Shown here one piece after another: positions 1 to 2,064 of a DNA stretch of 64,000 bases (the first letter of the stretch is position 1; every line of letters begins with the position of its first letter). Position numbers and translations under genes: made by a program. Source of the stretch: Aquimarina aggregata (GTDB lineage Bacteria > Bacteroidota > Bacteroidia > Flavobacteriales > Flavobacteriaceae); NCBI RefSeq assembly GCF_001632745.1, contig NZ_LQRT01000011.1, positions 1 through 64,000 on the forward strand, written 5' to 3'. The notes under the pieces were generated by a model. That model had not been told where the DNA came from. It ran no database searches and saw only the letters and a list, made by a program, of their open reading frames with translations.

Positions 1-2064
1 ACAGGACAAACTGGAGCCACTGGGCAAACAGGAGCTACTGGTGCAACAGGACAAACTGGAGCCACTGGGCAAACAGGTGCTACTGGTGCAACAGGACAAA
101 CAGGAGCAACAGGACAAACAGGAGCAACAGGACAAACTGGAGCCACTGGGCAAACAGGAGCTACTGGAGCTACTGGAGCTACTGGAGCAACAGGACAAAC
201 CGGAGCAACAGGTCAAACTGGAGCCACTGGGCAAACTGGAGCTACAGGAGCAACAGGACAAACAGGTGCCACTGGACAAACAGGTGCTACTGGTGCAACA
301 GGAGCAACAGGACAAACAGGAGCAACAGGACAAACTGGAGCCACTGGACAAACCGGAGCAACCGGAGCAACAGGACAAACCGGAGCCACTGGACAAACTG
401 GAGCTACTGGTGCAACAGGACAAACTGGAGCAACAGGACAAACTGGAGCAACAGGTCAAACAGGAGCAACAGGTCAAACAGGAGCTACTGGTGCAACAGG
501 ACAAACCGGAGCAACAGGACAAACCGGAGCAACAGGACAAACAGGAGCTACTGGACAAACTGGAGCCACTGGTGCAACAGGACAAACCGGAGCAACAGGG
601 CAAACTGGAGCAACAGGACAAACAGGAGCCACTGGGCAAACCGGAGCAACAGGGCAAACAGGTGCTACTGGACAAACAGGAGCAACAGGACAAACTGGAG
701 CCACTGGTGCAACAGGACAAACTGGAGCTACCGGAGCAACAGGACAAACTGGAGCAACAGGACAAACTGGAACCACTGGTGCAACAGGACAAACCGGAGC
801 AACAGGTCAAACAGGAGCTACTGGTGCAACAGGACAAACCGGAGCAACAGGTCAAACAGGAGCTACTGGTGCAACAGGACAAACCGGAGCTACTGGTGCA
901 ACAGGACAAACAGGAGCCACTGGGCAAACAGGAGCTACCGGAGCAACAGGACAAACTGGAGCCACTGGGCAAACAGGTGCTACTGGTGCAACAGGACAAA
1001 CTGGAGCAACAGGTCAAACAGGAGCTACCGGAGCAACAGGACAAACCGGAGCCACTGGACAAACCGGAGCAACAGGGCAAACAGGAGCTACCGGAGCAAC
1101 AGGACAAACCGGAGCCACTGGACAAACCGGAGCAACAGGGCAAACAGGAGCTACCGGAGCAACAGGACAAACTGGAGCCACTGGGCAAACAGGTGCTACT
1201 GGTGCAACAGGAGCAACAGGACAAACAGGAGCAACAGGACAAACTGGAGCTACTGGAGCAACAGGACAAACTGGAGCTACCGGAGCAACAGGTCAAACTG
1301 GAGCCACTGGACAAACAGGAGCCACTGGGCAAACAGGAGCTACTGGTGCAACAGGACAAACAGGAGCCACTGGACAAACAGGTGCTACTGGTGCAACAGG
1401 AGCTACCGGAGCAACAGGACAAACAGGTGCCACTGGACAAACAGGTGCTACTGGTGCAACAGGACAAACCGGAGCCACTGGACAAACCGGAGCAACAGGT
1501 CAAACCGGAGCCACTGGACAAACTGGAGCCACTGGACAAACAGGTGCTACTGGTGCAACAGGACAAACCGGAGCAACAGGTCAAACAGGAGCTACTGGAG
1601 CAACAGGACAAACTGGAGCTACCGGAGCAACAGGTCAAACTGGAGCCACTGGACAAACAGGTGCTACTGGTGCAACAGGACAAACAGGAGCCACTGGGCA
1701 AACAGGAGCCACTGGACAAACAGGAGCTACCGGAGCAACAGGTCAAACAGGTGCTACTGGAGCTACTGGAGATGCATTTATTAGAGCATTTGGTAAAGTT
1801 GCAGCAAATGGTAATGCTATTAGAATTCAAGGAGCCACTGTTGTGAAAAATGCTGGTACAGGTAACTATACTGTTACATTATCAACACCTAGAACAACAG
1901 CGGACTATACAGTTCATGTAACCGTATTTAATTCTACAATTCTTCAAACAACTGCTCAGGTTACTAATCAAACTACTAGTAGCTTTACAATTCAGTTGTA
2001 TGCAAGTAATGTATTCTTATATACAATCGATAGAGATTGGTACTTTACCGTTGAGGATTTTTAA
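1..2064 (+). CDS. Collagen-like surface protein, 5'-truncated by the window edge
   Basis: Frame 1 is open from the first base. It encodes 196 consecutive Gly-X-Thr triplets (bases 4-1767) with X = Ala or Gln, apart from one Gly-Thr-Thr near base 769. About 98 non-repetitive residues follow, starting Gly-Asp-Ala-Phe-Ile-Arg and ending DWYFTVEDF before TAA at 2062-2064. Gly at every third position is the collagen triple-helix signature, known in bacterial and viral collagen-like proteins. The C-terminal part is rich in Thr, Val and Tyr and is probably a small beta-sandwich that trimerises or caps the helix (inference). There is no proline in the repeat. The start and any signal peptide lie outside the window. 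The gene is 30 bases upstream of a secreted protein on the same strand and probably shares its transcript. A longer complete-looking ORF in frame 2 (rich in QQDK and EPLGK) is a shadow, because only frame 1 joins the repeat to a normal C-terminal domain. Confidence 0.9.
4..1767 (+). repeat. 9-bp minisatellite encoding Gly-(Ala/Gln)-Thr triplets
   Basis: The array is built from 9-bp units of two kinds, ggN-gcN-acN and ggN-caa-acN, always in register. Higher-order units are visible. A 63-bp block of seven triplets occurs twice exactly (1021-1083 and 1084-1146), and a 45-bp block occurs twice exactly (796-840 and 841-885). Synonymous third-position changes distinguish other units, so the array has grown by tandem duplication of short blocks. 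The repeat leaves several frames free of stops on both strands, which creates spurious ORFs. Confidence 0.95.

Follow-up and report, generated by a model that had tools for sequence, protein, structure and literature searches.

The locus examined here raises the question of whether a long repeat built almost entirely from two triplets, Gly-Ala-Thr (GAT) and Gly-Gln-Thr (GQT), belongs to a genuine collagen-like protein, and if so, what would hold its triple helix together. The window, i.e., the whole stretch of DNA that was analysed, comprises bases 1-64000 of contig C11 in a genome of 60 contigs (6.19 Mb, rated 100% complete), and its first base is the first base of the contig, within the repeat. 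Taking all the evidence together, we consider it probable that in this Aquimarina-type flavobacterium the repeat forms the shaft of a surface fibre that is secreted, homotrimeric, and collagen-like. Here, we describe the gene and its separated 5' half, then its knob, neighbours, and relatives, and weigh this explanation against four others.

The repeat and the 5' half of its gene

Read from base 1, frame 1 stays open until a stop at 2062-2064 and encodes 687 aa: the stalk, consisting of 116 GAT, 79 GQT, and one GTT, and then 98 aa without a collagen pattern (Table 1). All 196 of the 196 triplets are Gly-X-Thr, as a previous reading based on the sequence only had counted (at least 196 unbroken triplets, with Ala, Gln, or a single Thr at X), and Pro, Asp, Glu, Lys, Arg, and His are absent from nt 4-1767. 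Pfam Collagen (PF01391) matches frame 1 with 303.6 bits against a cut-off of 27.2; both this match and the residue count agree with the sequence-only reading of a collagen-like protein without proline or charge. Each of the 196 nine-base units has G, G, A, and C at positions 1, 2, 7, and 8, respectively, and the wobble positions 3, 6, and 9 are free to vary; the same applies to the 112 units on contig C6 described below. Codon use in the window repeat is GGA 141, GGT 41, and GGG 14 for Gly and ACA 94, ACT 74, and ACC 28 for Thr, and across both repeats the 308 Gly and 308 Thr codons differ at the wobble base alone. Because the variation is confined to wobble bases, frame 1 is the coding, selected frame, and chance is excluded. 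The longest complete ORF over the repeat does lie in the wrong frame, as had been pointed out (frame 2, 41-1846, 601 aa); given the wobble pattern in frame 1, we rejected this ORF and a reverse-strand frame of 610 aa, open at the contig end, as shadows. The order of the triplets obeys a simple rule: GQT alternates with one or more GAT. Two adjacent GQT never occur, either in the window (31.7 pairs expected under random order) or in the C6 part (16.4 expected).

Table 1. Coordinates of the fibre gene parts and their neighbours. Positions are those of the window unless a locus is named.
Feature	Position	Strand	Basis or remark
Fibre gene 5' half (base domain and 112 triplets)	L010:6525-8024, contig C6		Collagen search and ORF reading
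Collagen-like stalk, 196 Gly-X-Thr triplets	4..1767	+	Runs off the 5' end of contig C11
Knob, 98 aa and stop, all-beta, tail-fibre/tailspike-tip-like	1768..2064	+	AlphaFold2, PHROG, and structure searches
238-aa secreted-looking protein	2095..2811	+	N-terminal part resembles the fibre base domain
1873-aa surface protein, Calx-beta and right-handed beta-helix domains	2820..8441	+	Co-directional with the fibre
383-aa protein with CHU_C / T9SS type B sorting domain	8676..9827	+	Pfam 2e-28

A whole-genome collagen search yielded 24 matches: 13 in the window repeat, eight where C6 ends, and three single matches on C13, C24, and C35, these last in unrelated lipoprotein-like genes. Contig C6 terminates at base 148025, inside a repeat. 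The ORF there begins with MKIKLLGLFLFLSFVNLHAQ, which is signal-peptide-like by eye, and continues through a base domain of ~145 aa into 112 triplets (69 GAT and 43 GQT) that run to the contig end. The upstream signal peptide for which the sequence-only reading proposed to look is therefore represented by a candidate, but on contig C6; the frame-1 piece was correctly placed in the window, while the gene is not confined there and has its 5' end on C6. Upstream of the C6 ORF start is a TTG-18-TATTTTTG element (L010:6351-6379, by eye), which we take to fit the Bacteroidota promoter consensus; a sigma-70 scan came close to the shuffled level (44 vs 36.1, sd 5.4).

The C6 end and the C11 start agree over 71 bases with one mismatch. 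Since the repeats match themselves over up to 95 bases (C11) and up to 152 bases (C6), this overlap proves nothing and does not set the size of any gap; the case for the join is one of synteny. A single fibre ORF of 1044 aa in Aquimarina sp. AU474 (L072) is flanked by homologues of genes from both sides: upstream, glycosyltransferase-like (77%), deacetylase-like (69%), and GNAT-like (73%) genes, with two other large genes between, and downstream, homologues of the 238-aa protein (46%) and the CHU_C protein (74%). The genome under study has one full-strength base domain, one knob, and one full-length CHU_C partner. Synteny supports reading the C6 and C11 ends as halves of one gene; as judged from this gene order, the gene that runs off C6 inside its repeat is one with the 3' part in the window (196 triplets and knob). 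A weak second base-domain match also occurs in this genome (G000:C17:442-714, minus strand, E 2.5e-7), less than 1 kb from the contig start, and is perhaps another repeat-broken fibre gene.

A tRNA-Gly(TCC) gene lies ~0.2-0.4 kb upstream of the fibre gene on C6 (L010:6116-6189), and of the 29 Aquimarina-labelled loci in which it was looked for, 27 have it in this neighbourhood (7/7 and 20/22; absent in L111 and L124, with L084 and L096 outside the scan). This tRNA would read the favoured GGA codon. We rejected it as a functional companion and regard it as a landmark only, because it also adjoins relatives without a collagen stalk (L097, L103, L119, and L126); non-collagen versions with this tRNA beside them occur in Lacinutrix and Olleya.

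The knob and the neighbouring genes

The AlphaFold2 model of the knob scores a pLDDT of 92.6 and a pTM of 0.85. No Pfam or NCBIfam model reached its cut-off on the knob (best Pfam CBM_35, E 0.0013, 19.4 bits vs 28), and the H-type lectin family was absent among its Pfam matches up to E 1. Two PHROG tail-fibre families matched (phrog_3484, E 1e-6; phrog_11355, E 4e-5), and a Foldseek search of viral models produced 58 hits at E ≤0.001 (best E 2.6e-7, TM up to 0.90); nine of the 50 viral matches listed carry a tail-fibre name, and most others are uncharacterised or unnamed. Against the PDB, Foldseek found none at E 0.001, the best being the receptor-binding domain of the cyanophage Pam1 tailspike (E 0.03). 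With VIA-align, only six of 999 chains scored Z 8 or more, and values below 8 may reflect a shared arrangement alone: the Pam1 tailspike (Z 8.8; 2.0 Å over 72 residues), the phiAB6 tailspike (Z 8.4; 2.9 Å, 92 residues), and a shrimp-virus envelope protein (Z 8.2; 3.0 Å, 89 residues) lie above this value, and SLL-2 (Z 7.0; 2.8 Å, 77 residues), Helix pomatia agglutinin (Z 6.5), and BclA (Z 4.7-4.8) below it. SLL-2, Helix pomatia agglutinin, and discoidin II are, we assume, H-type or H-type-like lectins. As modelled, the knob has a fold like that of the tips of phage tail fibres and tailspikes, with a weaker likeness to H-type lectins. Neither a BLAST search of phage records nor a scan of viral contigs yielded a match to the knob.

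The knob occurs in 24 of 299 genomes of the family and 20 of 52 of the genus, the genome under study being counted in both. It is 50% and 46% identical to knobs on a second, non-collagen gene (~480-500 aa) in Aquimarina L070 and L067, respectively, and 47% identical to one from Maribacter (L112). Identity falls to 31-33% with the knobs on the orthologous collagen genes of four Aquimarina (L057, L072, L080, and the frame-broken L061). In a tree of 27 rows it groups with the second-gene knobs and eight other rows, with weak branching within this side, and a branch with 99/96 support separates it from all seven collagen-gene knobs in the tree. The five best other knob hits in the genus search (48-57%) all lie in frames of 477-503 aa; two genes of this kind were read through. 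Because the knob sits on a different branch from those of its orthologues, an extra event is needed if the C6-C11 join is right; on that condition, a knob taken over from the neighbouring gene, with loss of the latter, would account for the difference. A second knob-bearing gene was not found behind the CHU_C gene in the window, where the next ORF of at least 150 aa is at 10280.

Three neighbours follow the knob (Table 1). The base-domain profile A2 matches part of the 238-aa protein gene (2191-2355, E 3.5e-7), and a homologue of this protein (36-51%) comes after the fibre gene in each of Aquimarina L057, L060, L061, L067, L070, L072, and L080. The 383-aa protein also matches NCBIfam TIGR04131 (48 bits vs a cut-off of 35). 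A CHU_C homologue lies behind the base domain in 15 of the 19 loci that hold ~10 kb downstream, a raw count in which L127 and L128 look nearly alike; the four without are L094 and L060, L061, and L080, and in the latter three the long fibre gene fills most of the downstream stretch. Neither CHU_C nor the NCBIfam T9SS models gave a match on the stalk or the knob, and with no sorting domain of this system recognised in the fibre, the way it is exported can only be guessed. Upstream on C6, two glycosyltransferase-like genes (L010:1520-2443 and 5021-5899, by eye) point away from the fibre and vary among relatives.

Two further observations concern the window itself. The last 120 residues of the 1873-aa Calx-beta protein (8079-8438), which end in CGCVSFYKL, share 44% identity with the terminus of a knob-carrying protein from a different species (L050:3897-4226); from this likeness they may possibly form an undescribed surface-sorting or anchoring domain. 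Farther downstream (17573-21115), a gene for a TPR-like protein is directly followed on the same strand by one for a protein with a CHAT-like end (by eye).

Related loci in Aquimarina and other genera

The base-domain alignment comprises the best 80 of 517 loci, from named genomes, with the strongest in Aquimarina. A run of at least eight Gly-X-Y triplets follows the base domain in 41 of these 80 loci, and 28 of the 41 leave the contig. Fifteen of the 80, from other genera, reach a stop without a run of eight triplets, so non-collagen stalks share the base domain; the remaining run-less loci are cut by a contig end. A structure model of the base domain itself was weak (pLDDT 62.6) and too poor for a structure search.

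The stalks differ in their triplet words. At least two other Aquimarina, as read from their DNA, carry long runs without Pro or charge: L053 (GAT/GST/GNT, 338 triplets, incomplete) and L061 (GAQ/GIT/GVT, a run of 166 triplets). The same GAT/GQT word as in the window recurs in L063 (45 triplets including two GPT and one GLP, incomplete) and L055 (11 triplets). Other stalks use GLT/GRT (Aquimarina mytili L080, 711 triplets), GPT/GNQ (L060, 657 triplets), GAQ/GAT/GTT/GPT (AU58 L057, 375 triplets), and GAT/GQT/GET/GNT (Tenacibaculum skagerrakense L093, 131 triplets). Frame breaks or N runs, which are probably assembly faults, interrupt the repeats of L061, L067, L074, and L093, and their triplet counts are therefore minimal. 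Altogether, comparison of these sequences shows a locus with a conserved base, a species-specific stalk word, and an apparently exchangeable C-terminal knob. In the A. mytili stalk (L080:10001-17191), GLT and GRT alternate almost exclusively; it is proline-poor, with ~348 Arg and scarcely any balancing acid.

In 23 of the 31 Aquimarina-labelled loci the DNA ends before the reading frame does, and in 21 of these it does so within 2 kb. Because contig ends cut so many of these loci, gene catalogues probably under-report such fibres, and the suspicion that annotation may miss the gene holds as a general problem. Aquimarina draft contigs often end inside a fibre gene (e.g., L052, L054, L056, and L063-L066), and protein databases probably hold many N- or C-terminal fibre fragments.

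Helix stability, comparison with known fibres, and alternative readings

A review from 2025, as excerpted, singles out two main stabilisers of collagen, imino acids and opposite charges (PMC13138384). In the available text of two surveys, Thr is the commonest Y residue of bacterial collagens (31.6% overall and 48.3% in Gram-positives; PMC8968730, PMC3368898), Pro takes ~19% of X over all bacteria (PMC8968730), and Ala takes 23.1% of X in Gram-positives (PMC3368898). The sequence-only statement that known bacterial collagens rely on Pro at X and Thr at Y is thus borne out for Thr, but goes too far for Pro, at only ~19% of X in the passages seen of PMC8968730. The shaft is at the extreme of the bacterial X/Y range, not outside it. 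In the open-licence literature, among the matches listed, we found neither a proline-free, uncharged GAT/GQT collagen nor any Aquimarina collagen; of the two papers that mention Aquimarina together with collagen-like, one concerns, in the part available, injection-system fibres (PMC12923769) and the other Legionella secretion (PMC6617341).

O-glycosylation of Thr had been proposed as another means of stabilisation. According to the portion available of PMC12871550, the general O-glycosylation of Bacteroidota almost always needs Asp before the modified Ser or Thr, and the site motif D-S/T-A/I/L/V/M/T is given in the excerpts of PMC12871550 and PMC8550257. The stalk holds 310 Thr (198 and 112) and no Asp, and a search for this motif found 0 sites in the stalk, base domain, and knob; none of 11 relatives, chosen by us for testing among the 41 with a stalk, has a D-S/T-x site in its longest stalk run. 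Because the stalk lacks Asp, the proposal is disfavoured as far as the known D-S/T-x system is concerned. Hydrogen bonding by Gln or water is a plausible stabiliser.

In its plan, the fibre resembles the bacterial collagen-like proteins (PF01391) such as BclA, Scl1/Scl2 of Streptococcus, and Pcl of Pasteuria, which are likewise secreted-looking, with a long Gly-X-Y run, Thr at Y, and a globular domain at the end of the collagen shaft. Given the C6-C11 join, a non-collagenous domain bounds the collagen run on either side, and the protein begins with a signal-peptide-like stretch (by eye). It differs from these families in its shaft, without Pro or charge in 308 triplets, and in its base domain and knob, which have no match to them. 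The C-terminal domain of BclA is a TNF/C1q-like jelly roll, and BclA chains align with the knob at Z 4.7-4.8, below the tailspike tips at 8.8. The NCBIfam models SclB (164 bits vs 325), SclA (130.5 vs 400), and Lcl (109.8 vs 500) all stayed under their cut-offs on the C6 half, the only part scored, and the Lcl score comes from the repeat. Legionella Lcl, with a collagen shaft and a glycan-recognising C-terminal trimer, can be likened to the plan of the fibre, and its C-terminal family is also found in flavobacteria, both according to the text available of PMC11162425; a search of the PDB with the knob profile brought up no Lcl chain at E values up to 1, and there is none among the 50 VIA-align matches listed. 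Phage tail fibres and tailspikes (Pam1, phiAB6, and AP22) and R-pyocin fibres have the knob fold in common with the fibre. The EHEC prophage protein EPcl shares the trimeric plan with a collagen shaft that is proposed here, but its shafts are highly charged with 48.1% Pro at X, per an excerpt of PMC3368898. Unlike phage fibres, the Aquimarina fibre has a signal-peptide-like start and T9SS-type surface neighbours, and no phage structural genes were found around it in the regions read, where the neighbours include T9SS cargo and a ClpP-like gene (mostly by eye). The H-type lectins Helix pomatia agglutinin, discoidin II, and SLL-2 have a beta arrangement similar to that of the knob (Z 6.3-7.0). 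The fibre is thus a variation on known bacterial collagen-like surface fibres, and its main interest lies in the shaft without Pro or charge and in the mix-and-match family.

We propose that three chains would trimerise and, with folding that begins at the knob, zip up as a triple helix that spans at least 300 triplets and ~0.26 micrometre. This count takes the 308 triplets seen and allows for the loss of ~8 should the two contigs really overlap by the 71 matching bases; with a rise of 2.9 Å per residue (from the portion available of PMC8968730), the resulting ~900 residues give ~260 nm as a lower bound. Length, interchain Gly hydrogen bonds, and Thr/Gln hydration may stabilise the helix in this marine bacterium, whereas imino acids, salt bridges, and the known D-S/T-x O-glycan would play no part. 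The base domain would anchor the fibre at the cell surface, perhaps via the T9SS partner, although anchoring via this partner is a guess. Trimerisation would begin at the knob, which would also hold the binding site and may bind a surface glycan; this would make the protein a long-reach adhesin. Between species, shaft words and knobs may be replaced fast and the base kept. We put forward only tentatively, as slightly less than an even prospect, the wider proposal that Aquimarina builds fibres of 300 or more triplets without imino acids, charge pairs, or an O-glycan site, each species amplifying its own word on the conserved base, with phage-like knobs swapped between neighbouring genes.

Other explanations accept the fibre and differ on a part of it. 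It is unlikely that the helix is stabilised by Thr sugars from a system different from the known Bacteroidota one: the 310 Thr of the stalk, the glycosyltransferase-like genes (by eye) on C6, and the glycosylation of BclA of Bacillus (in the part available of PMC8968730) are in its favour, but O-glycosylation in the phylum wants Asp (PMC12871550, as excerpted), neither the stalk nor the 11 tested relatives offers a site, and those upstream genes point away from the fibre and differ among relatives. We consider it quite unlikely that the C6 and C11 ends come from separate genes, with the piece in the window closing a second GAT/GQT gene at its 3' end. The difference between the window knob and those of the seven orthologous Aquimarina collagen genes (the 99/96 split) would fit two genes, and the join lies outside the sequenced DNA; yet a genome rated 100% complete with one full-strength base domain, one knob, and two repeat-bearing contig ends, together with the single fibre gene in L072 flanked by genes of both sides, argues for one.

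The remaining explanations question the fibre itself. A disordered or beta-type Gly/Ala/Thr/Gln-rich spacer in place of a triple helix would account for a stalk that has neither main stabiliser, imino acids or opposite charges (per the excerpt of PMC13138384), but we consider this very unlikely: Gly holds every third position throughout the 308 triplets, stalks of related genes with this base domain are made of words that are clearly those of a collagen (GPT/GNQ, GPQ, and GEQ), and Thr is the commonest bacterial Y residue (in the available text of PMC8968730 and PMC3368898). The resemblance of the knob to phage tail fibres and tailspikes could also point to a prophage or injection-system tail fibre rather than a cell-surface adhesin, a reading that we find scarcely credible given the signal-peptide-like N-terminus, the neighbours that read as chromosomal genes and T9SS cargo (most labels by eye), and the lack of any match in phage records or viral contigs.

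Under the preferred reading of a collagen-like surface fibre, the locus bears on how collagen is stabilised. Imino acids and ion pairs are the usual explanation for the stability of collagen, and a two-triplet, uncharged, Pro-free shaft puts it to a natural test; the other two-triplet words of sister species on the same base form a natural series for the contributions of Thr, Gln, Ala, Leu, and Arg. In addition, a collagen shaft and a phage-tail-like tip are combined here in one surface protein, whose appearance is not that of a phage-borne one. If the wider proposal on Aquimarina fibres is true, the genus would be a natural library of minimal collagen-stability rules and modular fibre evolution.

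Short collagen-like segments also occur elsewhere in the same genome, as linkers in three lipoprotein-like genes (L011:4429-5634, L012:5044-5613, and L013:4111-5157). The three linkers are (GTT)n before a cellulase-like domain, a GPQ/GAD type, and GNT/GTT before an esterase-like domain (domains by eye).
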